From Sulfuricurvum kujiense DSM 16994 (GTDB lineage: Bacteria; Campylobacterota; Campylobacteria; Campylobacterales; Sulfurimonadaceae), in NCBI RefSeq assembly GCF_000183725.1, contig NC_014762.1, positions 1,240,001 through 1,304,000 on the forward strand: a stretch of 64,000 nucleotides of DNA, given 5' to 3'. Below the pieces are notes generated by a model. That model did no database searches. It saw only the letters and a list, made by a program, of their open reading frames with translations, and was not told where the DNA came from. The position numbers and the translations under genes are program-made. Positions 1,367 through 49,781 of this stretch are shown here, piece by piece. Numbering within the stretch: the first letter of the stretch is position 1; each line of letters opens with the position of its first letter.

Positions 1367-1407
1367 AAAAGTGGGCGAAAATTCGGTATTCAGGAGGAAA
1401 ATGAGGG

Positions 1408-2109: not shown

Positions 2110-2118
2110 ATTCAATCC

Positions 2119-6230: not shown

Positions 6231-6753
6231 TTTGATCACTCCATCGTTTATAAAGATTATTCTCGATGCCGAGCAGATCGAACCATTTGCCGATCATAAA
6301 GTTTTCCATCGATTCCAAATCCTCTTGATCGCCGTAGTAGGCAAGTACGGGCGGGGCAATAATAACTCCCATCATGGAGAGCTTATGCATATTTTCCAGC
6401 GCAATCGGTGAAAACGGGATTTCGCGAGGAGCAAGAACCAAGGTGCGGCGCTCTTTGATCATGACCGCCGCCGCGCGCGTAATGAGATTATCGGCAATAC
6501 CGCAGGCGATTTTGGCTAAGGTATTCATACTGCACGGCGTGATGATCATCGCATCTGCTCCGTAGGAACCTGATGCCACCGATGCCCAGATTTCATCGTT
6601 TTTGTGCAGGGTAAGATTTTCCTCTTTTTCCAATACGATAGAGGCATGATCCGATACGATCAGATGCTTTTGCACATCGGCGGGGAGGGCGCGAACGAGT
6701 TTAAGACCCAATGCCGCACCGCTGGCACCGCTGATCCCTACGACGATTTTCAT
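6223..6753 (-). CDS. ubiX: flavin prenyltransferase UbiX
   Basis: Prenylates FMN to make the cofactor of UbiD-type decarboxylases; in this phylum that supports menaquinone synthesis. The 176-residue flavoprotein has the N-terminal signature GISGASGAALGLKL and later SDHASIVLE, CSMNTLAKIACGIADN and APREIPFSPI, all family hallmarks of the dimethylallyl-phosphate and FMN sites. No ubiD lies in the window. The start overlaps the flgA stop by four bases. Confidence 0.93.
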   Translation of the reverse strand: MKIVVGISGASGAALGLKLVRALPADVQKHLIVSDHASIVLEKEENLTLHKNDEIWASVASGSYGADAMIITPCSMNTLAKIACGIADNLITRAAAVMIKERRTLVLAPREIPFSPIALENMHKLSMMGVIIAPPVLAYYGDQEDLESMENFMIGKWFDLLGIENNLYKRWSDQNA

Positions 6754-7613: not shown

Positions 7614-7702
7614 TGTAGAATTGTAACATAACGTCATTTGTTTTTCATTAGTTTTACGCTATTCTAACTGTTACCATAAAATTTTGAATTGATGTGGATG
7701 CA

Positions 7703-27531: not shown

Positions 27532-27539
27532 AAGCACTT

Positions 27540-32133: not shown

Positions 32134-34641
32134 ATGAAAGCTGTTATTATGGCAGGCGGATTTGGAACACGGATTCAACCGCTTACTAACTCAATTCCTA
32201 AACCGATGTTGCCGATAATGAACCGTCCAATGATGGAACATACGATCGTCAGTTTACGTGATTTGGGGATAAAAGAATTTATTGTCTTGCTTTATTTTAA
32301 ACCTGAGATCATTAAGGATTATTTTAAAGACGGAAAGGCATGGGGGATCAACATCACTTATGTAATACCGGATGATGATTACGGTACCGCCGGTGCCGTG
32401 AAAAAAGCTCAGGAATTTATCGGTAATGAAAATTTTATCATTATCAGCGGAGACTTAGTTACCGATTTTGATTTTCAAAAAATATTCGACTATCATAAAT
32501 CGAAAAATTCCAAACTGACCATCACACTCACTTCTGTTGAAAATCCGCTCGAGTTCGGGGTGGTCATAGCCAATGAAGAGGGGATTATCCAAAAGTTTCT
32601 GGAAAAGCCGAGTTGGGGTGAGGTATTCAGCGATACGATTAATACCGGTATCTACATTATCGAGCCGGAGATTCTGAATTACATACCTAATAATGAAAAT
32701 TTTGATTTTGCCAAAGATCTATTCCCGATGCTAATGAACAAAGGGATCGATTTAATGGCGGGATATGCCGAGGGATATTGGCGTGACGTAGGCAATCCTG
32801 AAAGCTACCGTGATGTATATGACGATATTTTGAGCGGAAAAATAAAATTCAAGCTCGACGGCGAAGCTATCAAATACGTTGACGGTGTTTTGATTCGCGA
32901 AGAGGACAATGTCATTGACGAGAGTGTCGAAGTCGTCGGTATTGTCGTAATCGGAAACAATGTTACGATCAAAAAAGGGGCCAGACTCAGTAATGTCGTC
33001 ATCGGAGACAATGTCACCATCGGAGCGTCATCAAAAATCTGCAATACCGTTATTTGGAATGATGTTGAGATAGGGAAAAATGTAAAGCTCGACGGATGTG
33101 TCATCTGTAATAACAACCGTATCGGCAAAAATGTGACGGCAAAATCGGGGATGATTTTGGCGGAAGGGTGCGAAATCGGCGAATTGGCCGTAGTCGAACA
33201 GGATGTCACAATCTGGCCGGATAAAATGATTCAAGAAGCCTCTATCGTCAGCCGCAGTGTCATTTTAGGGAGCAAATATAAAAATTCGATATTTGAAAAC
33301 GGGTTGGTTATCGGCAAATCAAATGTCGAACTCTCCTGTGAAATGGCGACCAAACTGGCCGAAGCATTCGGTGCTCAGCTCCCGGTAGGTTCTACCGTTC
33401 TCGTATCTCGTGACAGTTCTAAAAGCGCACGGATGCTTAAGCGGGCATTTTTAGGGGGGCTTTTATCCTCAGGGATGGACGTAATCGATTACAGAGCTAT
33501 TCCCTCGGCCGTCATGAGATGCAGCTTATCGTACCATGATGAGTATGCCGCCGGTATCCATATTAACCAAAAGCTCGATGATCCGACCAGTACCGTTATT
33601 ACCTTTTACAATCACGAAGCGCTTCGAATCAATAACGATACGGCAAAAAAGGTAGAAAAAGCGTTCTTTAAAGAGACTTTCCGTCGTGTAGACTACTCTC
33701 GAATCGGCCAAATTTTTCCATCCGATCATGAGAAAGAGTATGCCGGCTATAAAAAAGGGATGGAAGAGCTTCTTCAGTCGCATATGTTCAAGTGTCTTAA
33801 TTGCCGTGTCGCGATCGATGTGATGCACGGGATGTCATCCGAAGTGTTTCCCGATATTTTAAACGATATGGGTGTAGACAATATAATGTTCAACGCACAT
33901 CCCGACGAACAGCGTCTGGAAAATATCAATACCCTTATGAAACGCTCCTATGAGGATATGAGTGCCGTTATCAATGCATTGAAACTGGATGCGGGATTTA
34001 TGATCTATCCGCACGGACAGCGGCTTGATATATTGTGCGATAAAGGGATTGTACTCAGCAAGCAGGCCGCATTGTTTGTCGTTCTCACTCTTTTGAACAT
34101 GGAAGCGAAAGAAAAAGGGGTGGAAAAACGGGTATTTCTCCCTACCTGGGCAGCCGATTTTGTCCGATTCGAGCATTTGAAAATTGAACGCGGGCAATAT
34201 GCCAATTTTAAAAGCGATCAAATGAAACGGTACGATTTGGTCACGACGGGGGAGGGGAACTTCGCGTTTACCGAATTTGCAACCCACCGTGATTCGATGT
34301 ACGCTACGCTGAAAATTTTGGAGATGATCGTCAATCACAGAGTTAAACTCTCCGAACTTATCGAAGCGCTTCCGACGTTTTATTATCACACTTTCCAGGT
34401 TCCGTGTACACAGGCGAACAAAGGAAAAATGATGAGAATGTTCCTGGAAGACTCAAAAGGGAAAAAATCCTCAACCCTTGACGGAGTCAAAATTTGGCTT
34501 GATCAGCATGACTGGGTATTAATGATACCGGATCAGTACAGCGATCATCTAAACCTCTACATTCAAGCCAAAACAGCGAAACAGGGTGAACATATTTATG
34601 AAACCTATAAGACAAAAATTGAGGAATGGATACGTTCATAA
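32134..34641 (+). CDS. sugar nucleotidyltransferase fused to phosphomutase-like domain
   Basis: First gene of the glycogen operon. The N-terminal domain (about 1-235) is a nucleotidyltransferase with MAGGFGTRIQPLT, KPMLPI and SGDLVTDFD. A left-handed beta-helix follows (about 260-375), then a phosphohexomutase-like domain (about 380-835). The mutase domain lacks its catalytic residues. Where TASHNP should hold the phosphoserine it reads GIHINQKLDD (474-483), and the metal loop DGDAD is YPHGQ (625-629). The same two-part architecture is annotated as mannose-1-phosphate guanylyltransferase in cyanobacteria and others. Here it could supply GDP-, ADP- or UDP-sugar for the glucan enzymes, the mutase part acting as a scaffold or sensor. 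It overlaps the next start by one base (TAATG). Confidence 0.88.
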   Translation: MKAVIMAGGFGTRIQPLTNSIPKPMLPIMNRPMMEHTIVSLRDLGIKEFIVLLYFKPEIIKDYFKDGKAWGINITYVIPDDDYGTAGAVKKAQEFIGNENFIIISGDLVTDFDFQKIFDYHKSKNSKLTITLTSVENPLEFGVVIANEEGIIQKFLEKPSWGEVFSDTINTGIYIIEPEILNYIPNNENFDFAKDLFPMLMNKGIDLMAGYAEGYWRDVGNPESYRDVYDDILSGKIKFKLDGEAIKYVDGVLIREEDNVIDESVEVVGIVVIGNNVTIKKGARLSNVVIGDNVTIGASSKICNTVIWNDVEIGKNVKLDGCVICNNNRIGKNVTAKSGMILAEGCEIGELAVVEQDVTIWPDKMIQEASIVSRSVILGSKYKNSIFENGLVIGKSNVELSCEMATKLAEAFGAQLPVGSTVLVSRDSSKSARMLKRAFLGGLLSSGMDVIDYRAIPSAVMRCSLSYHDEYAAGIHINQKLDDPTSTVITFYNHEALRINNDTAKKVEKAFFKETFRRVDYSRIGQIFPSDHEKEYAGYKKGMEELLQSHMFKCLNCRVAIDVMHGMSSEVFPDILNDMGVDNIMFNAHPDEQRLENINTLMKRSYEDMSAVINALKLDAGFMIYPHGQRLDILCDKGIVLSKQAALFVVLTLLNMEAKEKGVEKRVFLPTWAADFVRFEHLKIERGQYANFKSDQMKRYDLVTTGEGNFAFTEFATHRDSMYATLKILEMIVNHRVKLSELIEALPTFYYHTFQVPCTQANKGKMMRMFLEDSKGKKSSTLDGVKIWLDQHDWVLMIPDQYSDHLNLYIQAKTAKQGEHIYETYKTKIEEWIRS

Positions 34642-36674
34642 TGGAACCGAATACTCTCCAACTCTCGTTTTTCTGGCATATGCATCAGCCCGATTATCGC
34701 GGGAGCGACGGGGTGATGAGCATGCCGTGGGTTTTTCTGCATGCCATTAAAGATTATTATGAGATGCCGTGGCTGTTGACAAAATTTGCGACCATCAAGG
34801 CAACGTTTAATCTGACCGCGACATTGATGGAGCAGTTGGAACTTTACCGCGATCCTCTCAAATACGATTATTTTCTCTCTTTATGGGAACAGCACCCCTC
34901 AAGTCTCGATTTTCAATCACGTCAATGGCTGATAAAACTGTGTAAATCGAGTCAGTTTGAGACGATGGTCAGGCCGATCCCCCATTATGAATATCTGTAC
35001 GGTAAAAATGAATACAGCGATAACGAGCTTATCGATTTGGAAATACTTTTTATTTTGTCGTGGTGCGGAAATTATCTGCGCAGTGAAAATGCGGTTGTAA
35101 AAAGGATGCTGCAGCAAGGCTCCGGATTTAATCAAAATGATAAACACCGTCTCCTCGATTCGCTGTGCGCGTTTATTGAAACGATTATTCCTTTTTACGC
35201 TTCATTGCAGCAAGAGGGGCGTATCTCAGTATCGACAACCCCTTATTATCATCCCATTTTACCGTTGCTGATCGACATGGAAAATGCCACCATCGCCAAT
35301 CCCCACACAACGCTGCCGAAAAGGCCTCTCTCATTGCATGCGGATGCTCAAAAACATATTGAACGCTCAATGAAGCTATATGAGAAGCATTTTAAAAAGA
35401 AACCGAGCGGTTTTTGGCCGGCTGAGGGGGCGGTAGATACGAAAACGCTCTCTCTTTACCGTGAGAACGGGATCAAATGGATTGCGACGGACGAAGCGAT
35501 TTTATTTCATTCGCTCGGCAATGACGAACGTAAAAATCTTTACATGACATACCGTTTTAATGAGGTGACGATCGCTTTTAGAGATCATGCACTCAGTGAT
35601 CTGATCGGATTTACCTATCGGTTTAAATCTGCGGACGATGCGGCAGATCATTTTCTCCATACCTTGAAATCGATCGAAAATGAACAAACTGATCCGTCTG
35701 TTTTTGTCATTGTCGACGGAGAGAACGCCTGGGAATTTTATGAGAACAACGGATTTAATTTTTTCATGGCACTCTATAAACGGCTGGAGGGCGCTTCATG
35801 GTGCAAAACAGCAACAATGGACGAAATGGCAAAAGGTATAAAACATACCAACCTTGAAAGCCTGCAGCCGGGGAGCTGGATTCACGGAACGTTTGATACC
35901 TGGTCAGGTCACCCCCAAAAAAATCGTGCATGGGAACTGATCTATCAAACGCGCCGGGATGCGGATAACTTTCGCGGGACGGTTTCAGACGAAACGGCAC
36001 GAAAAATTGAGGAACATTTCTTAGCGTCGGAATGCAGCGATTGGTTTTGGTGGTACGGTGACGATCATGTCACCGATTTCGCTGTGGAATTTGACACGCT
36101 CTTTCGTAACCATTTAATTTCTATCTACGAACTGCTGGGGATTGCTCCCCCGGCGAATCTTTTTCAGCCTATCCTTTCGATGAGTTCCGCAGCCCCGTTT
36201 TGGGTAAAACCTAAATCTCCGCTTACCCCTGTTATTGACGGTAAATATTCTTCATTTTTTGAATGGCTCGGATGCGGAAGCATGGATGAGAGGAAACTTT
36301 ATTCGACGATGGACAGGGTTCGAGGACCGATCGATACCCTCTACTATGGGCATGACAAAAAGGCGATATACGTAGCGTTCGAGGGGAACCTCTCTGCGAT
36401 TAATCGGCGCGGTCTGAAACTTTTGGTCATACTGGAAGAAAGCGGCGAACATTTTGAATTTGATCTGGAAACGGTTAGTGCTGCGGAGAACGATATCGTA
36501 GCCATGGATGAGCGGCTCGAAATTGCCATAGCACGCTCCCATTTCGGAATGATGCGACTCTTCCATTTGCGGTTTGAATTGATAAGCGATACTAAAATAC
36601 TCCAAACGATGCCCGGTAACGGTGCCCTTTGTATCGATTTGAACGAACATTATGCCGCCAACTGGTTTGTTTAA
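34641..36674 (+). CDS. GH57 alpha-glucan hydrolase, amylopullulanase type
   Basis: Probably cleaves alpha-1,4 and/or alpha-1,6 bonds of glycogen in the cytosol; there is no signal peptide. The 677-residue protein begins with SFFWHMHQPDYRG (GH57 motif 1). The nucleophile Glu is in GFWPAEGAVD (about residue 262) and the acid/base Asp in VIVDGENAWEFY (about 358), the latter typical of the amylopullulanase branch. The C-terminal 150 residues (VIDGKYSSFFEWLGCG onward) look like a DOMON/glucodextranase-type beta domain. I chose the ATG that overlaps the previous stop; an ATG five codons upstream at 34626 is also possible. Confidence 0.85.
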   Translation: MEPNTLQLSFFWHMHQPDYRGSDGVMSMPWVFLHAIKDYYEMPWLLTKFATIKATFNLTATLMEQLELYRDPLKYDYFLSLWEQHPSSLDFQSRQWLIKLCKSSQFETMVRPIPHYEYLYGKNEYSDNELIDLEILFILSWCGNYLRSENAVVKRMLQQGSGFNQNDKHRLLDSLCAFIETIIPFYASLQQEGRISVSTTPYYHPILPLLIDMENATIANPHTTLPKRPLSLHADAQKHIERSMKLYEKHFKKKPSGFWPAEGAVDTKTLSLYRENGIKWIATDEAILFHSLGNDERKNLYMTYRFNEVTIAFRDHALSDLIGFTYRFKSADDAADHFLHTLKSIENEQTDPSVFVIVDGENAWEFYENNGFNFFMALYKRLEGASWCKTATMDEMAKGIKHTNLESLQPGSWIHGTFDTWSGHPQKNRAWELIYQTRRDADNFRGTVSDETARKIEEHFLASECSDWFWWYGDDHVTDFAVEFDTLFRNHLISIYELLGIAPPANLFQPILSMSSAAPFWVKPKSPLTPVIDGKYSSFFEWLGCGSMDERKLYSTMDRVRGPIDTLYYGHDKKAIYVAFEGNLSAINRRGLKLLVILEESGEHFEFDLETVSAAENDIVAMDERLEIAIARSHFGMMRLFHLRFELISDTKILQTMPGNGALCIDLNEHYAANWFV

Positions 36675-36692
36675 CACTAATAAGGAATACGG

Positions 36693-38747
36693 ATGTCTAA
36701 AACTTCACTTTTATTCGGGATACACATGCATCAGCCCGTCGATAATTTTGATTGGGTGATCGAACATGCGATAGAGGTATGCTATAAACCTTTTTTTGAA
36801 GTTATGAGCCGCTATCCGTCATTTCGTTTCAGTCTCCATTGCAGCGGATGGCTGATGGAACAGATACAAATACGTGATCCCCAGTTGTATCAGCAAATTC
36901 AGGTGCTTTCCAAATCCGGAAGCATCGAATTTTTCAGTGCGGGGTATTATGAACCGATTTTGAGCGTTATCCCCTCGCAAGACCGCGTTGCCCAAATCGA
37001 AAAGCTCAACCGCTCTATTTTCGAATCATTCGGTCAAGCTCCCAAAGGGCTATGGCTCACCGAGCGGGTATGGGAATCTTCGCTGATCACTGATTTGAAC
37101 CGAAGCAAAATCGAATATACGGTCATGGACGATTATCATTTTCAGTGTGCGGGTTTTGATGAAGAGGTGCTTGACGGCTACTATTTGAGCGAGGAAGGGG
37201 GCAAGCGGCTTGGAATTTTTCCCATCAGCAAAAAGCTCCGGTACGCACTTCCGTTTTTGAGTGTCGAAAAGGCGTTGGATGTCATCAAAAGCTATAGACG
37301 AAAAGAGGATTCGGCAGCAATTATTTTCGATGATGCCGAAAAATTCGGCATGTGGCCCGGAACTTTTGAATGGGTCTATAAAAAAGGGTGGCTGGAGAAA
37401 TTCGTTCAAACCGTACTCGCAGATGATGATATCCAGACGCTCCATTACAGCGAATATTTTAAGCAGCATAAGCCGCGCGGAATCGCATACGTTCCCAATG
37501 CTTCGTATTATGAGATGGGTGAGTGGAGCTTGCGTGCGGATGATGCATTGCGCCTAGAGCGTTATAAACAGGAGATGGGATTTGAGCGGTATGAAAAAGA
37601 GGGGGTTAAATTTCTGAAAGGGGGTATTTGGAAAAACTTCTTCGTCAAATATCCCGAGAGTAATCGGATCCATAAACGGATGTTGGAGCTTTCAGCACAG
37701 CGTCCGGTCATTAACCGTTCGGATTTTGATACGGCACTTTTTAAACTCCAGACCAATGATCCGCTGTGGCACGGAGTCTTCGGCGGCCTGTATTTGCCGA
37801 ATTTAAGAGATACCGCCTATCGGTACCTCATCGAATGCGAAAATATAAGGTACGATAAGAGCAGCGTGATCGAAGTCAATCATAACGAGCTGGACGGCTA
37901 TGAAAAGATAAAAGTATTAACCCCCGATTTGATCTTTCGATTTGACAGCGCGTATGGTGGGCAGTTGGTAGAATTCGATCTGCGAGATCGCTGTTTCAAC
38001 TACCAAAATACCCTTACGCGCCGCAAAGAGGCCTACCATCAACGGGTAATGGAACCGGTTGTGTGCAACGAGCACGGGTGCAAAGATGAAGCTCCTGCGG
38101 AAGAGGGGATAGATACGATCCATAACGTCATAGCCCAAATCGATGACACTTTGCGGGATGCGATTATTTATGACTGGTATCTCAAAAATTCGTTTATCGA
38201 TCATATCAGTGACGAAACGTTTAGTCCGGAACGTTTTCGACACTGCTCATTCCGCGAATTCGGCGATTTTGCCAACCAGCCATATGAAGCCTCCTGGAAT
38301 CAACATGCGATTAGCTTTTTACGCCACGGCGGCCTTTATTTTCCGGAAAAAGTCGATGCCGTTTTGGAAAAGCATTATCTGCCCAGAGGTAACGGTTTGG
38401 ATTTTGAAATAAAATTCGAATCCGAATCAACCAAAGAACTCCTTTATCTGCTGGAACATAATTTACATTTTTCAGAAAGCGACAAAGTTTTGTTTAACGG
38501 TGAAATGTTGGAGGATGAGGGGGAGATTGAATCGTGCCGGGTTATGGAGATTATCGATTCTATATTAGGAAAAAGAATCACTATTTCTTTGGATCAGCCG
38601 TTCAAAACCACCTATTTCAAACTTAAAACGCTCTCACAAAGCGAACAGGGATTTGATTTGACGGTACAAGGGATCAGTTTTGCAATGGCAATACCATTTA
38701 GAGGCAATTTTATTTTAAAAGGGAAGTTGGAGATCAACGATGTCTGA
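36693..38747 (+). CDS. GH57 4-alpha-glucanotransferase
   Basis: Transfers alpha-1,4-glucan segments, reshaping glycogen chains. The 684-residue protein matches the Thermococcus litoralis glucanotransferase layout. It has FGIHMHQPVDNF at the start, the nucleophile in GLWLTERVWE (Glu124, where the T. litoralis enzyme has Glu123) and the acid/base in IIFDDAEKFGMWP (Asp214, as in that enzyme). A large C-terminal beta-sandwich follows (about 390-684). Its catalytic motifs differ clearly from the preceding GH57, so the two are not redundant copies. AAGGA precedes the ATG and its end overlaps galT by eight bases. Confidence 0.9.
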   Translation: MSKTSLLFGIHMHQPVDNFDWVIEHAIEVCYKPFFEVMSRYPSFRFSLHCSGWLMEQIQIRDPQLYQQIQVLSKSGSIEFFSAGYYEPILSVIPSQDRVAQIEKLNRSIFESFGQAPKGLWLTERVWESSLITDLNRSKIEYTVMDDYHFQCAGFDEEVLDGYYLSEEGGKRLGIFPISKKLRYALPFLSVEKALDVIKSYRRKEDSAAIIFDDAEKFGMWPGTFEWVYKKGWLEKFVQTVLADDDIQTLHYSEYFKQHKPRGIAYVPNASYYEMGEWSLRADDALRLERYKQEMGFERYEKEGVKFLKGGIWKNFFVKYPESNRIHKRMLELSAQRPVINRSDFDTALFKLQTNDPLWHGVFGGLYLPNLRDTAYRYLIECENIRYDKSSVIEVNHNELDGYEKIKVLTPDLIFRFDSAYGGQLVEFDLRDRCFNYQNTLTRRKEAYHQRVMEPVVCNEHGCKDEAPAEEGIDTIHNVIAQIDDTLRDAIIYDWYLKNSFIDHISDETFSPERFRHCSFREFGDFANQPYEASWNQHAISFLRHGGLYFPEKVDAVLEKHYLPRGNGLDFEIKFESESTKELLYLLEHNLHFSESDKVLFNGEMLEDEGEIESCRVMEIIDSILGKRITISLDQPFKTTYFKLKTLSQSEQGFDLTVQGISFAMAIPFRGNFILKGKLEINDV

Positions 38748-39750
38748 AATCCGGTATGACCGTCTTCATGATACCCATGTCCTTATCGCACCCGAGAGGC
38801 TGCGTCATCCTGATACGCCTGCTGAATTTATTGAGCCCTCTATACCGGAACCGTGCCCTTTTTGTGAGGGAAATGAATCGATGACTCCGCGTGAGATTTT
38901 TGCCCTTCGTCCGGAGGGAGGTTTTCCCAATGAAAGAGGATGGGAGACGCGTGTCGTCCCGAATCTTTTCAAAGCGGTTCAGATTGAAACTCCTCCGAAT
39001 CACCATTTCGGTCTGTTTGAGTATTGGGAAGGTTTCGGTGCGCATGAGGTGATCATCGATACTCCCCGCCATACGACATCTATGTGCGATTGGACGCACG
39101 CAGAAGCGGTCGCATGGCTCAAAACACTACGTCAGCGTGTCGGCGATTTACGTCGCGACGGCCGATTGGTCTATATCTCCTTGTTTAAAAATGAGGGGAG
39201 AAACGCGGGGGCGACAATGAGCCATTGCCATACACAGCTGATTGCACTGCCGATGATTCCAAAATCTTTCAGTGAGTTATACCGAAGATCAAACGAATAT
39301 TATCAAACCAGCGGTCATGCATTGATGGAATCCATACTTTCACACGAAGAGGAAATTCAGACCCGTATTATTGAAAAAAAAGATGAGTTTACCTCTTTTT
39401 GTCCGTATGGGAGTGCGTATCCTTTTGAAGTGATGATCAGTTCGGCTAAGGCAACGGGACAAATCGATACCCTCAGCCGAACCCGCATCGATACCGTTGC
39501 CTCGTTGCTGATTTCGACCTTGCAGCGGCTTAGACGGCAGCTCGGAGTGTTTCATTTTAACCTTTGGATTTCTACCCCGCCGCTCATCGATACGGAAGGG
39601 ATAGGTTCATTTGATCTTTGCCGTTTTACGATTCGTATTATGCCGCGCCTCTATCGGCACGGCGGATTTGAAAATGCGACGGGCATCATCATAAATCCTG
39701 TTTCTCCGGAACTGGCGGCAAAATTACTACGGGAGAGCATTCATGAATAA
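38740..39750 (+). CDS. galT: GalT-like hexose-1-phosphate nucleotidyltransferase
   Basis: Exchanges a nucleotide between a sugar nucleotide and a hexose-1-phosphate through a His intermediate. The 336-residue protein has the two HIT-like halves of GalT, an N-terminal zinc pair (CPFCEGN, about 44-50), and the active-site motif AGATMSHCHTQL with H-x-H-x-Q (Cys replacing the usual Pro). Within this operon it need not act on galactose: relatives include ADP-glucose phosphorylases, so it may help form or recycle ADP- or UDP-glucose. It overlaps both neighbours by eight bases. Confidence 0.85.
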   Translation: MSEIRYDRLHDTHVLIAPERLRHPDTPAEFIEPSIPEPCPFCEGNESMTPREIFALRPEGGFPNERGWETRVVPNLFKAVQIETPPNHHFGLFEYWEGFGAHEVIIDTPRHTTSMCDWTHAEAVAWLKTLRQRVGDLRRDGRLVYISLFKNEGRNAGATMSHCHTQLIALPMIPKSFSELYRRSNEYYQTSGHALMESILSHEEEIQTRIIEKKDEFTSFCPYGSAYPFEVMISSAKATGQIDTLSRTRIDTVASLLISTLQRLRRQLGVFHFNLWISTPPLIDTEGIGSFDLCRFTIRIMPRLYRHGGFENATGIIINPVSPELAAKLLRESIHE

Positions 39751-41164
39751 AAAACGCTTGTTATTCGCATCCAGCGAAGTGTACCCCTTTGTTAAAACCG
39801 GAGGGCTGGCGGATGTTTCCCATTCGCTTCCCAAAGCATTAAATGAGATGTATGACGTAAGCGTCGTATTGCCTCTTTACAGCCAGATAGACCGAAGCCG
39901 TTTTTCCCTCACGCTGTTAAACACGTTTGAGATAATGATGGGGGGGGTTTCGTATACGATAGAACTTCACGGGACATCCTATGAGGGGGTAGAATACCGT
40001 TTTATTTATGCACCGATCCTCTGTGATCGCGATTATCTTTACGGACCGCCGGAGAGCGGCTATGAAGATAACGGTATACGGTTCGGGCTCTTTTCGCATG
40101 CGATCACCCAGTTACTTCGAATCGATTCCTATGCAATCGCACACTTAAACGATTGGCAATGTGCATTGGCCGCATTGTTCGTGAAAGAAGATCCTTCTGT
40201 TAAGACAAAAATAGTCTACACCATTCACAATCTCGCTTATCAAGGGGTATTTCCCCCATCGGTGATGGGCCAAATCGGGCTCAATGAACGCTATTTTACG
40301 ATGGATGCCCTGGAATTTTACGATCAGGTCAATTTCATGAAAGCGGGGATTGCTTATGCGGACGCCGTTACGACGGTAAGCCCGACGTACGCCAAAGAGA
40401 TTTTAACTGCCGAATTCGGATGCGGCTTGGAGGGATTTTTGCATCTCCATCGGCGTAAACTCCGCGGGATAGTAAACGGCATCGATTCTGACCATTTCTC
40501 CCCTTCTACCGATAAAGCGCTAGTCGCGCCCTATAAAACCCTCAAAGGGAAAAAAGCCTCCAAAAATGATCTTCTCAAACAATTCGGCTTAAAAGGGGCC
40601 GCTAAACCGCTGCTTGTTTTCATCGGCCGGTTCACCCATCAAAAAGGGATGGATGTTTTGATCGAGACCCTTCCGAAAATTGCCGAACTCGAATGCAATA
40701 TCGCCCTTTTGGGAGAAGGGGAAGAGGCTCATTTCGAGTCATTGGAAAAGATAGCCAAAGAGTATAAAAATGTCAGTTTGCAATTTGGTTACGATGAATC
40801 TATTGCGCACCGAATGTATGCGGCAGCCGATTTTTTACTGATGCCTTCTTTGTTTGAGCCGTGCGGACTTAATCAGATGATTGCCTTTGCCTACGGAGCC
40901 GTCCCGGTGGTCAATAAAGTCGGTGGATTGGCCGACACGGTGAAAAAATTTGAATCGTATGATGCAGAGAGCCCATCCGGATTCGGCATCGTATTTACCT
41001 CTGCTACACCCAAAACTTTCTTTACGGCAGTCAAAAAAGGGTGTGACCTCTACGCAGACAAAAAACATTTTGAATCGATCGTCAATCACAATATGAAATG
41101 TAACTATTCGTGGTCCGAAAGTGCCAAAGCGTACGATAGTATCTATAAGAAACTGATCAAATGA
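39743..41164 (+). CDS. glgA: glycogen synthase, first copy
   Basis: Transfers glucose from a nucleotide sugar to the glycogen chain. The 473-residue GT5 protein has the nucleotide-binding motif PFVKTGGLADVSHSLPKAL at about 12-30 and the second motif EPCGLNQMIAFAYGAVPVV, followed by GGLADTV. Against its neighbour at 41996 it is 19 residues shorter and clearly diverged (for example SHSLPKAL versus AGALPKAL). The two may differ in donor or in chain initiation. It starts eight bases inside galT and overlaps the ROK kinase by four. Confidence 0.92.
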   Translation: MNKKRLLFASSEVYPFVKTGGLADVSHSLPKALNEMYDVSVVLPLYSQIDRSRFSLTLLNTFEIMMGGVSYTIELHGTSYEGVEYRFIYAPILCDRDYLYGPPESGYEDNGIRFGLFSHAITQLLRIDSYAIAHLNDWQCALAALFVKEDPSVKTKIVYTIHNLAYQGVFPPSVMGQIGLNERYFTMDALEFYDQVNFMKAGIAYADAVTTVSPTYAKEILTAEFGCGLEGFLHLHRRKLRGIVNGIDSDHFSPSTDKALVAPYKTLKGKKASKNDLLKQFGLKGAAKPLLVFIGRFTHQKGMDVLIETLPKIAELECNIALLGEGEEAHFESLEKIAKEYKNVSLQFGYDESIAHRMYAAADFLLMPSLFEPCGLNQMIAFAYGAVPVVNKVGGLADTVKKFESYDAESPSGFGIVFTSATPKTFFTAVKKGCDLYADKKHFESIVNHNMKCNYSWSESAKAYDSIYKKLIK

Positions 41165-42003
41165 AAAAACTGTTTATCGATATCGGCGGTACGCATTTGC
41201 GCAGCGAGATAGTGAGTGAAGAGCATACGGCAGAGGATATGGTATCCTCGCAGGAGGTCGGACTGCTCTCTTATATCGATAAACAAGCTACACTCCATCC
41301 AGACATCTCTTTTATCGGCATATCGTATGCCGGGCAGGTTAACAACGGGATCATTGCCGCTTCGCCAAATATTAATATTGATGAATATGATATTGCATCG
41401 GTCGTAAAATCACGCTACGGTATTCCGTTGGTCATAGACAATGATCTCAATTGTGCCGTCCGGGCCGAATCGGCATACTGGCAATCAGACAATATCGCCG
41501 CTCTTTTTGTCGGTACGGGAATCGGTGCGGCGGTTATCGATCATGGCTCATTGGTTAAGGGAAGCCGAAACATGGCATATGAGATAGGGCATATCCCATA
41601 TCAGGAGACACCGTTTTTTTGCGGATGCGGACGAAACAACTGTATAGAGCTTTTTGCATCGGGCTCCGGGATGGGAAAATGGCTAAAACATTTCGGCAGT
41701 GACCATGATCTTGATTTGAATCGGTTAAAAAATTCGGATATCGAAGAAGAACGTCTCATCGCGAGCCGCTTTGAAGATGCATTTCTTCATGCATCAGGTG
41801 TTTTGGTAACCCTCGCCAATCCTGAAATCCTGGTACTGGGCGGAGGGGTGATTGAACAGAATCCATATTTGGGTACACTATTGGAAGAAAAATTAAAACG
41901 TTATGCCTTAAACGCTTCGTTAGAAGGGTTGCGTATTGAGATGAGTGTGTTAAAAAATGCACCGCTTGAAGGTGCGAAATTATTGGAGACGCAGAATGGA
42001 TAA
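41161..42003 (+). CDS. ROK-family glucokinase
   Basis: Phosphorylates glucose, probably recycling glucose released from glycogen by the GH57 enzymes. The 280-residue protein has the phosphate-1 motif DIGGTHLRSEI, the catalytic Asp in VIDNDLNCAV, the phosphate-2 motif FVGTGIGAAV, and the ROK zinc motif CGCGRNNC preceded by EIGH. It lies between the two glycogen synthases with overlaps on both sides. Confidence 0.9.
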   Translation: MKKLFIDIGGTHLRSEIVSEEHTAEDMVSSQEVGLLSYIDKQATLHPDISFIGISYAGQVNNGIIAASPNINIDEYDIASVVKSRYGIPLVIDNDLNCAVRAESAYWQSDNIAALFVGTGIGAAVIDHGSLVKGSRNMAYEIGHIPYQETPFFCGCGRNNCIELFASGSGMGKWLKHFGSDHDLDLNRLKNSDIEEERLIASRFEDAFLHASGVLVTLANPEILVLGGGVIEQNPYLGTLLEEKLKRYALNASLEGLRIEMSVLKNAPLEGAKLLETQNG

Positions 42004-43474
42004 ATTAAATATTTTAATTGCCGCTTCGGAAGTAGTCCCCTTTGCCAAAAGCGGCGGATTAGCGGATGTTGCCGGGGCTTTGCCGAAAGCCCTCAGAGCA
42101 CTCGGTCATGATGTGCGTGTTGTGATGCCGCGCTACTATATCGTTGATAGGGAAAAATACGGCCTCCGATTTATGGAAGGGGGCCTCGGTGTCCCGATGG
42201 GGATTATGGGCGAAGAGTGGGCCGGAGTGTATGAGGGAGTAATGAGCGGAACCGATGTGCCCGTCTATTTTATCGATCATGAAGGGTTTTTCGGCCGCGG
42301 CGGTCTGTATGATGAGAACGGATTCAGCTATACCGACAATGACAACCGCTTTATCTTTTTCTCCCGGGCAGTGATGCAACTGGCTAAAAAGCTCCGTTTT
42401 CATCCGGATGTCATCCATGCAAACGACTGGCATACGGCCTCGATACCGATGATGCTGAATGTCCAATACGCCTTTGACGATGATTTCGCTTATACGGGAT
42501 CACTTTTGACCATCCATAATCTTCAGCATCAGGGACACTTTTATAAAGGGGCTATGGATATCCTCGATATAGGTTGGAGCCACTTTAACGCCGATGAAGT
42601 TGAGGAGTTTGACGGGATTAACCTCCTCAAAGGGGGGATCGTTCATGCCGATGCCATCAGTACGGTGAGCCGTCGCTACGCGCAGGAGATTCGTACATCG
42701 GAATTCGGATGGGGGTTGGAGCGGCTGATTGACGGCTATTCGTATAAATTGCACGGTATCCTCAACGGGGTAGATTATGATGAATGGAGTCCCGCACACG
42801 ATCCTTTTATCGCCGAAACGTTCGATACTGATTCTATGGACGGGAAACGTGTGTGTAAAAGTGCCTTGCAATACGCTTTCGGCCTTCCCGAACGTGATGA
42901 TGTTCCGCTGATAGGTCTTGTCGGAAGACTGGTTGAACAAAAAGGGATCGAACTCCTCGTCCATTCCATCCATGCATTGATGCATATGGAGCTTCAAATT
43001 GTTCTTTTGGGGGCAGGGGAGAAGTGGGCGGAACATTTTTTCAGCGATATTGCCGGACGGTATCCTGAAAAATTTCGCTGCTACATCGGATACCGAAATG
43101 ATCTGGCACACCAAATCGAGGCGGGATGCGATCTGTTTTTGATGCCCTCCTTATTCGAGCCGTGCGGGCTCAATCAGATTTACTCTCTGCGTTACGGAAC
43201 GCTCCCTATCGTCCGTGCAACGGGGGGACTGGATGATACGATCGAAAACTATGCCAACGACTCGACACACGGCACCGGATTTAAATTTTACGATGCCACC
43301 CCGAATGCCTTGATTAATACGGTCGGATGGGCAATCTATACGTGGTACAATGACCCTCATGGATTTGAAACAATGCAGCGTAACGCCATGGAGAAACGAT
43401 TTGACTGGCACCACGCGGCATTAGAGTATGAAGCGCTGTACTATCGCATTAAAGCGGGAAGAAGAGGAGAATGA
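41996..43474 (+). CDS. glgA: glycogen synthase, second copy
   Basis: A 492-residue GT5 glycogen synthase with PFAKSGGLADVAGALPKAL at the N-terminus and SLFEPCGLNQIYSLRYGTLPIV with GGLDDTI near the end. Both are classical for bacterial ADP-glucose-dependent GlgA, so this copy looks the more conventional of the two. GGAG lies seven bases before the ATG at 41996; a longer reading of 13 more codons runs through the kinase end and has no ribosome site. Its stop overlaps the glgB start by four bases. Confidence 0.94.
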   Translation: MDKLNILIAASEVVPFAKSGGLADVAGALPKALRALGHDVRVVMPRYYIVDREKYGLRFMEGGLGVPMGIMGEEWAGVYEGVMSGTDVPVYFIDHEGFFGRGGLYDENGFSYTDNDNRFIFFSRAVMQLAKKLRFHPDVIHANDWHTASIPMMLNVQYAFDDDFAYTGSLLTIHNLQHQGHFYKGAMDILDIGWSHFNADEVEEFDGINLLKGGIVHADAISTVSRRYAQEIRTSEFGWGLERLIDGYSYKLHGILNGVDYDEWSPAHDPFIAETFDTDSMDGKRVCKSALQYAFGLPERDDVPLIGLVGRLVEQKGIELLVHSIHALMHMELQIVLLGAGEKWAEHFFSDIAGRYPEKFRCYIGYRNDLAHQIEAGCDLFLMPSLFEPCGLNQIYSLRYGTLPIVRATGGLDDTIENYANDSTHGTGFKFYDATPNALINTVGWAIYTWYNDPHGFETMQRNAMEKRFDWHHAALEYEALYYRIKAGRRGE

Positions 43475-45417
43475 ATACTCACCAACACCATCGGATAACC
43501 TATGAGATTTCGCGACTGAGCGAACTGGATATCTATTTGTTCAAAGAAGGTAACCATACCAAGCTATACGATAAACTCGGTTCTCATGCGATGGAACACA
43601 ACGGGATTTCCGGGATCTATTTTGCCGTATGGGCGCCCAATGCCGCATATGTCAGTGTCCGGGGAGATTTCAACCATTACGATACCGGCTCGCATCCGTT
43701 AAAACTTCGTGAAGACGAGTCGGGGATATGGGAAGGATTTATAGAGGGAGTGGAGCAGGGGCTCACCTACAAATATCATATCGCCTCAAAATTTCATAAT
43801 ATCGTCCATGACAAAAGCGATCCGTTCGGTTTTTATGCAGAAGAGCCGCCGAAATCGGCATCCCGTGTCTGGAGTCTGGAAAACTACCCTTGGGACGATA
43901 AAGGATGGATGGATACACGATATCGCAACAATGCCCATGATGCACCGATCAGCGTGTATGAGATGCATGTCGGTTCATGGAGACGCAAAGTCGAAGAAGA
44001 CAACCGTTTTCTCACCTACCGGGAGCTAGCCGTAGAACTGGTCTCGTATCTTAAAGAGATGAACTATACCCATGTCGAGTTTATGCCCCTGAGCGAGTAT
44101 CCGTTTTTCGGTTCATGGGGATATCAGGTCGTAGGATACTTTGCGGCAACGGCACGTTTCGGAACACCGCAGGATTTGATGTATCTGATCGATAGGCTGC
44201 ATCAAAACGGGATCGGCGTTATTATGGACTGGGTACCCTCACATTTTGCCGTCGATATGCACGGCTTGATTAATTTTGACGGAACGGCCCTGTATGAGCA
44301 CGACGACCCCCGACAGGGGTTTCATCCCGAATGGGGAAGCATCATTTTCAACTACGGTCGAAACGAAGTAAAATCGTTTTTGATCTCTTCTGCAATGTTT
44401 TGGCTGGATAAATACCATATCGACGGCATACGCGTCGATGCGGTCGCTTCAATGCTTTATCTCAACTATGCACGAAAAGAGGGGGAGTGGATCCCCAACC
44501 AATACGGCGGGAATGAGAATCTCGAAGCGATTGAATTTCTGAAAAAACTCAATACCAGTGTGTACGGAGAATTTTCCGATATCCTGATGATCGCCGAAGA
44601 ATCGACCGCCTATCCGATGGTGACGCGACCGGTAGATGTAGGCGGGCTAGGATTCGGATTTAAGTGGAACATGGGATGGATGCATGACTCCCTTAAATAC
44701 ATGAGCCGTGATCCGATCTATCGTCAACACCATCATCACCAGCTCACGTTTAGTATGTGGTACGGATTTGATGAGAACTTTATGCTCCCTCTCAGCCACG
44801 ATGAGGTCGTCCATATGAAAGGCTCGCTCATCAACAAAATGCCGGGCGATCATAATCAAAAATTTGCCCATTTGCGTTCATTGCTAGCGTATATGATGGC
44901 TCATCCCGGAAAGAAACTCCTGTTTATGGGGGGAGAGATCGCGCAGTTCGCGGAATGGAGTTTTGAACGCTCCTTGGACTGGCATCTTTTGGACTATCCG
45001 CTCCATCACGGTTTGCAAAAGATGGTTTCCGATTTGAATGCGCTCTATGCACATGAGCGGGCTTTGCATTTGTATGACGAGAAACGCGAAGGGTTTGAGT
45101 GGATCGATGATCGGGATTATTCGCATAACTGCATCAGCTTTATCCGCAAAAGTGATGATCCTACCGACAATATTATCGTTGTGTGCAATTTTGCCGATAA
45201 TACACGGGAAAACTACTGTCTGGGTGTGCCGTATGCGGGAGATTATGTAGAAATCTTCAATTCGCAATCACACTATTATGAGGGTTGGAATATCGGAAAC
45301 ACTTCACCTTTAGCGGCGGTTGAGAGAGAAATGCACGGCCGTCCGTACACACTTACACTGACCTTGCCTCCGTTAGGGGTACTCTATCTAAAGCGCAACG
45401 AAGGGGAAAAAAGATGA
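43471..45417 (+). CDS. glgB: glycogen branching enzyme
   Basis: Makes alpha-1,6 branches in glycogen. The 648-residue GH13 protein has an N-terminal CBM48 domain (FAVWAPNAAYVSVRGDFN, about 50-70) and a catalytic barrel with DWVPSHFAVD, the nucleophile Asp in DGIRVDAVAS, the acid/base Glu in MIAEESTAYP, and LSHDEVVHMKG. A C-terminal beta domain follows. Length and motifs are typical of the short GlgB type that lacks the first N-terminal module of E. coli. It overlaps both neighbours by four bases. Confidence 0.95.
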   Translation: MNTHQHHRITYEISRLSELDIYLFKEGNHTKLYDKLGSHAMEHNGISGIYFAVWAPNAAYVSVRGDFNHYDTGSHPLKLREDESGIWEGFIEGVEQGLTYKYHIASKFHNIVHDKSDPFGFYAEEPPKSASRVWSLENYPWDDKGWMDTRYRNNAHDAPISVYEMHVGSWRRKVEEDNRFLTYRELAVELVSYLKEMNYTHVEFMPLSEYPFFGSWGYQVVGYFAATARFGTPQDLMYLIDRLHQNGIGVIMDWVPSHFAVDMHGLINFDGTALYEHDDPRQGFHPEWGSIIFNYGRNEVKSFLISSAMFWLDKYHIDGIRVDAVASMLYLNYARKEGEWIPNQYGGNENLEAIEFLKKLNTSVYGEFSDILMIAEESTAYPMVTRPVDVGGLGFGFKWNMGWMHDSLKYMSRDPIYRQHHHHQLTFSMWYGFDENFMLPLSHDEVVHMKGSLINKMPGDHNQKFAHLRSLLAYMMAHPGKKLLFMGGEIAQFAEWSFERSLDWHLLDYPLHHGLQKMVSDLNALYAHERALHLYDEKREGFEWIDDRDYSHNCISFIRKSDDPTDNIIVVCNFADNTRENYCLGVPYAGDYVEIFNSQSHYYEGWNIGNTSPLAAVEREMHGRPYTLTLTLPPLGVLYLKRNEGEKR

Positions 45418-46673
45418 TTTTCAGCCATGATTTTGGCTCAGAATCATTTTCGACAGACTCAAGATTAAAAGATGATGCGTTTTCATCTCTTGTAAACGAA
45501 CGTATCGGTAAGGAGATCGGTTATTACGAATTGCCGTTTCAATCGGTTGCGCTAATCGAACACATTCATCGGTTTGCCGAAAAAAATCCTTTTTTGTCAG
45601 CAGAAACGATTCACGATATCGCCGTTATCGGGATCGGAGGATCATCGCTTGGAACCAAAGGGATCGATTCACTGCTTAAATCGAAAAAAATGCCTTATAG
45701 AACTCTTCACTTTCTTGAAAACACCGATCCTATCGCTATTTCCAAAACACTTTCCAATCTGAAAAAAGAGAGTACTTTGTTTATCGTCATCTCTAAATCT
45801 GGGAAAACGATAGAGACTGTCTCGATTTTTAAAACGCTCATCGGTTATTATCACTTGGATTTGGACGGAATTGACAAAGAGCGTATCGTCGCCATTACCG
45901 ATGAAGGATCGCCGCTATCACGATTCGCGTCATATCACGGTATTCAGCAGTTCGGGATACCCAAAAATGTCGGCGGAAGGTTTTCAGTACTGAGTGCGGC
46001 GGGGATCGTCCCTCTGACATTAGCGGGGTACGACACCAAATCATTGTTGGAAGAGGGCGGCCAGTTTTTGGAACGGTTTTTCAATCATGAAGAAGACCAT
46101 CTTCTGGATAAAGCTTTGTTTCTTTATAAACACAGCAGCGATATCAACATTAATGTTCTGTTTGCCTATGCCGATGAGCTTGAAAACCTATGCAAATGGT
46201 ATGTACAGCTATGGGCCGAGTCGTTAGGCAAAAAGGACGGAGCGGGAAAACACGTAGGACTGACCCCTTATGCACTGATCGGATCGATTGATCAACACTC
46301 GTTTTTACAGCTTATTATGGAGGGACCTAGAGATAAAAGTGTTACTTTTATTACGATAGAAGATTTTGAAAATAATTTGCTTATTCCCGATATATCGTTA
46401 AAATATCTGGAGATGAACGACGTTGTCAACGGAAAAAAGTTTAATGAGCTTATCAATTTTCAATGCGAAGCGACAAAAGAGAGTCTCAGAATGAACAATA
46501 TTCCGACTGATCATATTATAATTAAAAAGATAAATGAAGCAAGTGTCGGTACAATAATAGTCTACTATGAATTGTTGACGACTTTGATGGGTAGGATGAT
46601 GGATATCAATCCTTATAATCAGCCGGGCGTAGAGCTTGGGAAACAGATTCTTTGCGAAAAATTTACAGAGTGA
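45414..46673 (+). CDS. pgi: glucose-6-phosphate isomerase
   Basis: Interconverts glucose-6-phosphate and fructose-6-phosphate, joining glycogen turnover to glycolysis or gluconeogenesis. The 419-residue protein is the compact bacterial form, with VIGIGGSSLGTKG, the phosphate-binding ISKSGKTIETVS and the catalytic Glu/His region DQHSFLQLIMEGP. It is embedded in the operon between glgB and the GT35 gene, so its expression is tied to storage metabolism. Confidence 0.93.
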   Translation: MIFSHDFGSESFSTDSRLKDDAFSSLVNERIGKEIGYYELPFQSVALIEHIHRFAEKNPFLSAETIHDIAVIGIGGSSLGTKGIDSLLKSKKMPYRTLHFLENTDPIAISKTLSNLKKESTLFIVISKSGKTIETVSIFKTLIGYYHLDLDGIDKERIVAITDEGSPLSRFASYHGIQQFGIPKNVGGRFSVLSAAGIVPLTLAGYDTKSLLEEGGQFLERFFNHEEDHLLDKALFLYKHSSDININVLFAYADELENLCKWYVQLWAESLGKKDGAGKHVGLTPYALIGSIDQHSFLQLIMEGPRDKSVTFITIEDFENNLLIPDISLKYLEMNDVVNGKKFNELINFQCEATKESLRMNNIPTDHIIIKKINEASVGTIIVYYELLTTLMGRMMDINPYNQPGVELGKQILCEKFTE

Positions 46674-46680
46674 GGGAAAT

Positions 46681-48324
46681 ATGATTTTACACGACTACCA
46701 ATATGATGCGAAATACACAAAAAGTATTGCCTATTTTTCGATGGAATTCGCGATTCATCAAGGGCTAAAAATCTATTCCGGAGGATTGGGCTTTTTGTCC
46801 GGTTCGCACATGCGCAGTGCTTATGATCTGCGTCAAAATGTTGTGGGAGTCGGCATATTATGGAGTTTTGGCTATTATGACCAGACGCGCAGTCCCGATC
46901 GAAGCCTCAAAGCCGAGTTTATTCGGAAACATTACTATTTTTTAAAAGATCTGGGAATACAGGCAAAAGTGATCATCCACTCGCAAGAGGTCCATATTAA
47001 AGCATATTATTTATCTCCGGACATTTTCAGCTCGGCCCCGTTGATTTTACTTTCGACCGATATCCCTGAAAACGATTTTCTAGCCCGTACGATCACTCAT
47101 AAACTGTACGACGCCAACGAAGAGACCCGTATTTCTCAGGAAATCGTTTTAGGAATCGGGGGAGTCAAGGTACTCGAAGCGCTGAAACAAAAAATAGATA
47201 TCTATCATATGAATGAAGGTCACGCTTTGCCGCTGGTATTTGAGCTTTATGCCAAATATCGCGATATGGACGAGGTTAGAAAGCGGGTTGTTTTTACGAC
47301 CCATACCCCTGAAGATGCGGGGAACGAACAGCATAATATCGATCTGCTGCATAAATTCGGGTTTTTTAACGGCTTGGATATGGAAACGGTCCGCTCCATT
47401 ATGATGATGGAAAACGAAAACAATTTCAATCTCACGGTCGGTGCGCTGCGTGCATCGAAAATTACTAACGGCGTCTCCAAATTCCATGGGGAAGTGGCGA
47501 ACCGGATGTGGAAGGATTGCGAAGGAAAATCAGAAATCATTCACGTTACCAATGCGCAAAACCGCCGTTTTTGGACCGATAAAGAGTTATTGGCGGCATT
47601 GGACGATCATGAAGATTATCAGATTATCAGTCGAAAAAAACATCTTAAACGCGGTTTGTTTGCTATCGTTGCCGACCAAACCGGTAAAATGTTTAATCCC
47701 GATATTTTGACGATTGTCTGGGCACGCCGTTTTGCGGAGTACAAACGTCCGGGACTCATCAAACACGATTTCGCACGTTTTAAAAAGCTGCTTCAGCGTA
47801 CCGATAAACCTGTTCAGATTATTTGGGCCGGAAAACCGTACCCTTTTGATACGAATGCGATCAACGTTTTCAACGAACTTATCCATATCAGTCATGATTA
47901 TCCGAACATGGCTGTCTTGGTCGGATATGAGCTTGATCTCTCCCGAATGCTGAAAAAAGGGTCGGATATCTGGCTGAATACTCCTCGTGTTTCACGCGAA
48001 GCAAGCGGAACGAGCGGTATGACAGCGAGTATGAACGGTTCTATCCACTTCTCAACCGATGACGGATGGCACCCCGAATTTGCAAAACATACGATCAATT
48101 GTTTTACGATCCCTCCGATCGATCATGATCAGCCGGTTGAGCTTCAGGATGCCGAAGACAACAAAAACATGATGGATATGCTCGAAAACGAGATCATCCC
48201 TATGTATTACGATAAGCCTGATCACTGGGTGCAAATGATGAAAAGTGCGATGAGCGACGTTATTCCCGCCTTTGACTCAGGACGTATGGCACATGAATAT
48301 TATGTCAAAATGTACGAGCACTGA
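46681..48324 (+). CDS. short GT35 phosphorylase-like protein lacking the PLP lysine
   Basis: By family this should be an alpha-glucan phosphorylase, releasing glucose-1-phosphate. The 547-residue protein keeps YFSMEFAIHQ, YSGGLGFLSG, YHMNEGHALP, TTHTPEDAG and ARRFAEYKRP, and it is shorter than the usual 700-850. At the cofactor site, where the family reads GTSGMK, it reads SGTSGMTASMNG, so residue 448 is Thr (codon ACA at 48022-48024) instead of the Lys that binds PLP. It may be inactive, regulatory or use another chemistry. The ATG at 46681 has GAGGGAA directly upstream. It ends the glycogen operon, eight bases from the convergent pyruvate kinase stop. Confidence 0.85.
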   Translation: MILHDYQYDAKYTKSIAYFSMEFAIHQGLKIYSGGLGFLSGSHMRSAYDLRQNVVGVGILWSFGYYDQTRSPDRSLKAEFIRKHYYFLKDLGIQAKVIIHSQEVHIKAYYLSPDIFSSAPLILLSTDIPENDFLARTITHKLYDANEETRISQEIVLGIGGVKVLEALKQKIDIYHMNEGHALPLVFELYAKYRDMDEVRKRVVFTTHTPEDAGNEQHNIDLLHKFGFFNGLDMETVRSIMMMENENNFNLTVGALRASKITNGVSKFHGEVANRMWKDCEGKSEIIHVTNAQNRRFWTDKELLAALDDHEDYQIISRKKHLKRGLFAIVADQTGKMFNPDILTIVWARRFAEYKRPGLIKHDFARFKKLLQRTDKPVQIIWAGKPYPFDTNAINVFNELIHISHDYPNMAVLVGYELDLSRMLKKGSDIWLNTPRVSREASGTSGMTASMNGSIHFSTDDGWHPEFAKHTINCFTIPPIDHDQPVELQDAEDNKNMMDMLENEIIPMYYDKPDHWVQMMKSAMSDVIPAFDSGRMAHEYYVKMYEH

Positions 48325-48332
48325 GAGGCTCG

Positions 48333-49781
48333 TTACTTCCACTGGAAGCTGGGATTATAAAGCAGTTTATTTTTGCGGAAAACAAGATCCATCTGTTTAA
48401 GGATCGTGGTCAGAATTTTGATGGTTTCCAGTGCATAATCCCCTTTATTGAGCATAACGCATTCTGCTTTATGGGCAAAAACGACATCCGATATCTCGGC
48501 ACGGCTCGGGATATTGGTTTTCATTTTGCTTTCCAAAACCTGTGTGGCCAAAATGACCGGCATATGTGCCGCGGTGCAGAGGTCTAAAATCTCTTCTTGC
48601 ATATAGGCGAGATTTTCAAATCCTATTTCGATTGCCAAATCTCCCCGTGCGATCATAATCCCTGAATGCCCGTATTCAATCAATGCTTCGAGAATTTCGG
48701 GCAGATTTTCGACCCCTTTTTGGGTTTCGATTTTAGCGACAATCGCAATTTTCCCTTTTTTGCCCAGGCGGTCCAACTCATCGATAAGATCGTGTATGTC
48801 TTCGGATGTTTGGGCAAAGGATATCCCTATAATATCGGCATATTCGCAAATATGGGGCAATACCTCTTTATCATGATCGCAGATCGCTCGTACGGCGATA
48901 TCGCTGTTGGGGAAATTGATCCCTTTCTCATCTTTGAGCGATATCCCTTTTTCATTGCGCGATACGACTTTGCAGACGATATCGTCGCCGAGTATCTCAT
49001 CAATCACCATTTCGATCTTTCCGTCATCCACAAAAACCTTGTCTCCGACTTTGACCAATCCGCCCAAATGTTCTAGGGTGCATCCGACAACGGCATCGTA
49101 TTGTTTAGCGGCTTTTTTCAGCGGAGGCTGCCCGTCCGGGTGTATTAGGACACTGTCTCCGCAGAAAAGTTTATATTTTTTCGGCTTGTCCGATTTTTTT
49201 GATTTTTTTAGGGATGTTCTGATCTTAGGGCCTGCAAGATCGACGTATATTTTCAGCTCTTTTTCGTCGGAACATGCATTTTTAATTTCTCCGGACATCT
49301 CTTTCCATGCACTCGGATTGTCATGGGCTGTATTAATCCGAAAAAGGTGGACCCCTTCCTGAGACAGATTTTTGAACCACTCTTTTTCATCCGCATAGTT
49401 CGAAGGGACGGTAATCATGATTTTTGTTTTGTCTTCGGATGTGGAAAAAATTTCACTGTTCTTATCCATTATCGCATGCGACTCTTCATAACTTAATAGT
49501 GCTTTAGGCAGATGCAGCTCTTTTTTAAGGGCATGAGAAAGCATCTCGAGCGCAACATTGATACTGGCCTCCATATGAGCTTGCGAACGTCCGAACGACG
49601 ATAATCCGACTTTGGTAAGATCGTCTTGTAAATGGGAAAAATCGTGTTTCCGGACATTGAGGTAGTATTTCATGTTGAGTAAAGAGACATTTGGCATATT
49701 TTTGTCTACTCCGGACGACATTTTTTCTTTCAGATCCAACAAGTTATCAAATAACTCGGATAAAATATCTTTCTTCATCAT
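48333..49781 (-). CDS. pyk: pyruvate kinase, atypical form
   Basis: Converts phosphoenolpyruvate and ADP to pyruvate and ATP. The 482-residue protein carries an unusual N-terminal helical extension of about 115 residues. The catalytic barrel and B domain follow, with HLFRINTAHDN, VDLAGPKIRT, IVAKIETQKGVEN (catalytic Lys and metal Glu), MIARGDLAIEIG and ILATQVLESK. After CVMLNKGDYALE, which replaces the usual MLSGETA segment, only about 30 residues remain, so the C-terminal allosteric domain is missing. Regulation must therefore differ from that of the E. coli enzymes. It is divergent from pgk. Confidence 0.9.
   Translation of the reverse strand: MMKKDILSELFDNLLDLKEKMSSGVDKNMPNVSLLNMKYYLNVRKHDFSHLQDDLTKVGLSSFGRSQAHMEASINVALEMLSHALKKELHLPKALLSYEESHAIMDKNSEIFSTSEDKTKIMITVPSNYADEKEWFKNLSQEGVHLFRINTAHDNPSAWKEMSGEIKNACSDEKELKIYVDLAGPKIRTSLKKSKKSDKPKKYKLFCGDSVLIHPDGQPPLKKAAKQYDAVVGCTLEHLGGLVKVGDKVFVDDGKIEMVIDEILGDDIVCKVVSRNEKGISLKDEKGINFPNSDIAVRAICDHDKEVLPHICEYADIIGISFAQTSEDIHDLIDELDRLGKKGKIAIVAKIETQKGVENLPEILEALIEYGHSGIMIARGDLAIEIGFENLAYMQEEILDLCTAAHMPVILATQVLESKMKTNIPSRAEISDVVFAHKAECVMLNKGDYALETIKILTTILKQMDLVFRKNKLLYNPSFQWK

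Follow-up and report, generated by a model that had tools for sequence, protein, structure and literature searches.

Can a glucan phosphorylase of family GT35 dispense with the lysine that anchors its PLP cofactor? Reviews treat the family as uniformly PLP-dependent (PMC4336185, PMC11046441), and the question is raised by a gene of Sulfuricurvum kujiense DSM 16994, studied here within a window of 64,000 nucleotides (positions 1,240,001 to 1,304,000 of NC_014762.1). An earlier note on this DNA had described an intact reading frame at the end of a tight glycogen operon, a Thr codon in the place of the PLP lysine, and a gene unlikely to be undergoing simple decay; all of this was borne out. The frame is open and uninterrupted (product 547 aa), and its ATG follows gagtgaggga. 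The gene closes a ten-gene run starting at 32134, in which the nine upstream genes (32134-46673) lie on the same strand and adjacent genes overlap, or stand apart, by a few to about 20 bases (Table 1). Neither of the two GH57-like operon proteins has an NCBIfam match, and the two GT5 glycogen synthases encoded by this single operon are divergent.

Table 1. Features of the glycogen operon and of its terminal GT35 gene (window coordinates).
Feature	Position	Strand	Basis
Short GT35/TIGR02094 protein without PLP Lys, 547 aa	46681-48324	+	profile scores, AlphaFold model, PDB match
Operon: NDP-sugar pyrophosphorylase/phosphosugar mutase fusion, 835 aa	32134-34641	+	under every family cut-off
Operon: GH57-like glucan enzyme, 682 aa	34626-36674	+	GH57 by sequence reading
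Operon: GH57-like 4-alpha-glucanotransferase/amylase, 684 aa	36693-38747	+	GH57 by sequence reading
Operon: GalT-like uridylyltransferase	38740-39750	+	below cut-off
Operon: glycogen synthase GlgA (GT5), copy 1	39743-41164	+	TIGR02095, 493.8 bits
Operon: ROK-family sugar kinase, probable glucokinase	41161-42003	+	below equivalog cut-offs
Operon: glycogen synthase GlgA (GT5), copy 2	42002-43474	+	TIGR02095, 534.8 bits
Operon: branching enzyme GlgB	43471-45417	+	sole GH13 (PF00128) match found in the genome
Operon: glucose-6-phosphate isomerase Pgi	45414-46673	+	NF003016, 549.9 bits
His208 (MalP H346)	47302-47304	+	65/65
R350 and K355, substrate-phosphate residues (MalP R535, K540)	47728-47745	+	65/65
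G415-Y416-E417...S421...K425, clade-specific segment expected near the cofactor pocket	47923-47955	+	alignment
Glu440, catalytic Glu (MalP E638)	47998-48000	+	65/65; 8 residues before Thr448
Codon 448 ACA = Thr, at the PLP lysine position (MalP K646)	48022-48024	+	alignments to PDB 9l6i and E. coli MalP

Judged by profile and fold, the 547-aa protein is by descent a member of the GT35/TIGR02094 lineage. It scores 455.5 bits with TIGR02094, 'alpha-glucan family phosphorylase' (cut-off 191.7), and 53 bits with PF00343 (cut-off 27), and reaches 19.7 bits with the GT5 catalytic-domain profile PF08323, under the cut-off of 22.7. Its AlphaFold model (mean pLDDT 84) has the GT-B glycogen-phosphorylase fold, and the best PDB match is the closest solved relative, the Segatella copri glycogen phosphorylase (PDB 9l6i; Z 34.6, rmsd 2.9 over 534 residues). 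Starch synthase IV with ADP (Z 29.7) and E. coli GlgA (29.4) fit the model roughly as closely as MalP does, and the catalytic Glu of the protein aligns with that of GT5; since a GT-B fold with an aligned Glu is common to all retaining GT-B enzymes, this likeness is not diagnostic of GT5. The S. copri enzyme shares the family score, the fold, the catalytic residues, the SGGLG loop and the EASGTSG motif, but the Lys-less protein is about 300 residues shorter, has Thr, Ser or Ala in its clade where the S. copri enzyme has the PLP lysine, and belongs to a clade with invariants of its own (Q293, W347, P386, E417, S421 and K425). In the alignment to 9l6i, Thr448 falls on the Lys of EASGTSGEKAEMNG, where our protein reads EASGTSGMTASMNG; in that to E. 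coli MalP, it falls on K646. With the PLP lysine absent, the protein should not be classed among the ordinary PLP phosphorylases.

The replacement extends well beyond this genome. About 137 distinct sequences of the clade have Thr, Ser or Ala at site 448 and none has Lys; among other GT35 sequences, Lys occupies the PLP site in 83 of 84. Thr448 had been proposed as a possible clade feature, which holds for the absence of Lys, found clade-wide, but not for Thr itself, one state of a Thr/Ser/Ala site. A genome scan with two peptide patterns, neither of which covers site 448, found at least 591 relatives in Campylobacterota, Bacteroidota and a few Pseudomonas; in the 80 loci listed among them, all 80 short proteins have Thr, Ser or Ala, and the lone Lys belongs to a long paralog adjoining the short gene in one locus (L097). 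Bias from the patterns was rejected as an explanation, because they skip the site and the Bacteroidota members recovered by an independent profile search agree (16 of 16 short members without the Lys). The codons used by separately sequenced orthologs, ACT, ACG or ACC for Thr, AGT for Ser and GCG for Ala, exclude chance or the sequencing error that the earlier note had named as a refutation. Among near relatives, dN/dS is 0.02-0.03, with saturated synonymous sites and differing Thr448 codons; given this low ratio and orthologs that are Lys-less throughout, sequencing error, frameshift and decay were all rejected. In one Pseudomonadota genome, a long GT35 (L261, 883-aa frame) carries Asn where the PLP lysine would be (GTSGMNAAMNG), possibly a second, independent lysine loss or an assembly error.

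Shortness was likewise rejected as the cause of the loss. Compact TIGR02094 proteins of about 570 aa, encoded by Alphaproteobacteria, Cyanobacteria and plasmids of Chlamydiota (L214-L221), keep the Lys and form a clade separate from the Lys-less one, so that shortness alone is no explanation. The genes of these compact Lys-bearing proteins, on plasmids of Alphaproteobacteria, Cyanobacteria, Chlamydiota and Methylophaga, adjoin genes for type II GAPDH, phosphoketolase, phosphoglucomutase, metal transport or stress; a Lys-less gene on a plasmid of Pontibacter actiniarum (L213) likewise has a type II GAPDH neighbor.

In a tree built with site 448 left out, the Lys-less proteins group as one clade (SH-aLRT 100), whose stem is long at 1.76 changes per column. 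Confinement of this clade to Campylobacterota was rejected, as its members also come from Bacteroidota and a few Pseudomonas. With the root on classical phosphorylases, it falls inside the TIGR02094 lineage; a nested, as opposed to sister, position is tentative (SH-aLRT 82; AU p of 0.18 against one Lys clade). On this phylogeny, the Lys-less proteins are an old, single-origin subclade of the GT35/TIGR02094 lineage in which, given that root, Lys was lost once. The direction of the change hinges on this rooting: were the root placed on the Lys-less stem, the rest of GT35 would have acquired Lys instead. The Pseudomonas copies nest within Bacteroidota, which suggests transfer, and among 398 Pseudomonadota genomes the Lys-less gene occurs solely in the centre genome. 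No relatives were found on viral contigs, and literature searches of an open-access subset found no description of a Lys-less GT35 or of the clade.

H208, N291, R350, K355 and E440 are invariant across phyla in an alignment of 65 members, as are the Gly loop G34-G35 and T444, which means that neither the sugar site nor the phosphate site has been lost. These five residues are the counterparts of MalP H346, N450, R535, K540 and E638, kept despite an identity of about 19% to the E. coli enzyme and the absence of K646; MalP K534 is replaced by Arg here and in all TIGR02094 proteins examined. Five further residues, W347, P386, E417, S421 and K425, are clade-specific and invariant in the Lys-less clade, and from muscle phosphorylase we presume that they lie near the cofactor pocket. 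As read from the alignment, their joint change fits a different ligand equally with an unanchored PLP. At position 415, 60 of 65 members have Gly, whereas Lys-bearing GT35 have Asp or Asn and, rarely, Glu. All 65 members carry Lys at 425, where Lys-type GT35 nearly always has a non-Lys residue such as Val, Ile or Thr; if a nearby Lys takes over PLP binding, the possibility named as refuting in the earlier note, K425 is the leading candidate.

We tentatively favor, with a probability of about 0.45, the reading that the 547-aa protein is an active alpha-1,4-glucan phosphorylase working without a Schiff-base-anchored PLP. We infer its activity, its substrate and the way in which the role of the cofactor is filled. 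The enzyme would convert glycogen and phosphate to glucose-1-phosphate, using for phosphorolysis the phosphate site R350/K355, the sugar site H208/N291 and E440, and the second catalytic phosphate would be supplied by a B6 phosphate bound non-covalently in the pocket, which is retained, or else by another phosphate at the same place. Reduced phosphorylase, in which the Schiff base is absent, is still active. In GT35, the role of PLP is that of its phosphate, which does acid-base work (PMC6411801, PMC11046441). Taken together, loss of the lysine need not end catalysis if other contacts keep the phosphate. The invariant catalytic residues, the purifying selection, the status of sole GT35, the tracking of GlgB, the operon context and a fold nearest to that of the Segatella copri enzyme probably support a phosphorylase. 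Conversely, all characterized GT35 are described as PLP enzymes (PMC4336185), the long stem means that function may have shifted, and the GH57-like enzymes and kinase of the operon could degrade glycogen without phosphorolysis.

Gene content across genomes bears on the same point. The genome of S. kujiense was checked for a second, Lys-containing phosphorylase, as had been advised, and no second GT35 was found in it. Likewise, 36 of 39 genomes with the Lys-less form have no Lys-type GT35, the remainder holding a classical or a long Lys-type copy. The Bacteroidota and Pseudomonas genomes among these 39 all have a GT5-type synthase match (33/33), and GlgB exceeds its cut-off in 27/33; a Lys-less-bearing genome without a synthase, which would have hinted at a synthase role, was thus seen in 0/33. 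Across 298 Campylobacteria, GT35 is present in 37 of the 38 genomes with GlgB versus 6 of the 260 without it. Those 38 divide into 22 with the Lys-less form only, 10 with both types, 5 with the Lys type only and 1 with neither, so that the Lys type occurs in 5/6 GlgB genomes lacking the Lys-less form versus 10/32 having it (P ~0.03, kinship ignored). In Campylobacteria, the Lys-less gene thus tracks GlgB and appears to replace Lys-bearing GT35, a pattern that favors substitution for a phosphorylase over a third synthase. The long GT35 of Campylobacterota (about 710 aa, L032-L046) belong to the same lineage and occur in the same class of genomes, but have Lys in all cases seen, carry extra N-terminal residues and are present in a minority of glycogen-making genomes. 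One genome of the order of S. kujiense (G040) has GlgB, but neither TIGR02094 nor PF00343 detects a GT35 of any type in it, and a nearly complete genome holds a GT35 gene with several stops and frame changes (G104:C1:456702-458231; L047, L232).

In Campylobacterota, the Lys-less gene is mostly found next to glycogen genes, with Pgi, the ROK kinase or the mutase fusion as frequent neighbors; in Bacteroidota it stands alone, and no operon that would name its function was found. In two loci, a ROK glucokinase-like domain and a Lys-less GT35 share a single uninterrupted frame, of 854 aa in L021 (~634-3195, -) and 877 aa in L085 (~5577-8207, +); in both, a possible start with a ribosome-binding-like sequence still precedes the GT35 part.

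The strongest rival, which we consider doubtful, makes the protein a glucosyltransferase acting on alpha-glucan with a nucleotide sugar (ADP- or UDP-glucose) as donor and a nucleoside monophosphate in the place of PLP. The lost lysine sits at catalytic Glu + 8, which we take to be the place of the second Glu in the EX7E motif of NDP-sugar GT-B enzymes, and profile alignment puts E440 on GlgA E377 and T448 on GlgA Y385. GT5 GlgA is also alike in size, in fold (Z 29, on a par with MalP) and in its non-acidic E+8 residue, and the Gly at 415 resembles the 'GY' of GT5. PLP has, moreover, been proposed to have taken over from a nucleoside monophosphate in proto-GT35 (PMC11046441, Chem Rev). Nevertheless, the operon already encodes two GlgA, whose substrate is ADP-glucose and whose sequences are distant, most genomes with the Lys-less form would then be without any GT35 phosphorylase, and the Pfam GT5 match is under cut-off. 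The better fit of the clade to the GT5 profile was too weak for use, as this profile barely parts it from Campylobacterota Lys-type GT35 (C-terminal medians 12.1 vs 11.0). That a widespread GT35 branch has left PLP altogether, using a nucleotide sugar or another phosphate donor, seems to us similarly uncertain and on balance unlikely; if true, the branch would represent the reversal of the step proposed for proto-GT35, or even a survivor of it.

Less probable still is an ordinary phosphorylase whose anchor has moved, with PLP held covalently by another lysine, most plausibly K425. Beyond its near-exclusive conservation in the clade, this residue lies one helical turn after S421, which aligns with A653 of GP, a position presumably near PLP, but the clade has many further changes of its own, and K425 could instead be exposed at the surface or contact the substrate. 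A glucan-binding pseudoenzyme with a regulatory or scaffolding role in glycogen metabolism would account for the loss of a residue considered essential in GT35 and for the tie of the gene to the glycogen cluster in Campylobacterota. The earlier note had put forward such a glucan sensor, which does not hold as the leading reading and which we find improbable: the remaining catalytic residues are all invariant over two phyla, where pseudoenzymes usually lose several, the gene appears to stand in for the Lys-bearing phosphorylase, and it stands alone in Bacteroidota. There is slightly less to be said for a PLP-free phosphorylase, which would employ inorganic phosphate and protein groups, or for an enzyme that releases glucose or disproportionates glucan. 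Retaining trehalose phosphorylases are not known to need PLP. Their membership in GT4 (PMC8950772) offers a mechanistic precedent, although the profile searches reported no GT4-type match for the 547-aa protein, and the in-frame union with a ROK glucokinase in two genomes would fit free glucose as product, but we found no precedent for GT35 activity without PLP.

A branch conserved in two phyla, annotated 'glgP' and usually the sole GT35 of glycogen-making genomes, is without the anchor lysine; either nature can do without the Schiff base, or a glycogen phosphorylase has been annotated in many genomes that have none. The branch bears on metabolic models of Campylobacterota and Bacteroidota. 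It also allows the entry of PLP into the GT-B fold, or its exit, to be tested.

Elsewhere in the window, the gene at 48333-49781 (-) encodes a protein like pyruvate kinase that is extended at its N-terminus by about 115 residues and scores under all pyruvate kinase cut-offs, and the product of 26659-27537 (-) resembles, by sequence reading, the Abi_2/AbiD abortive-infection family.
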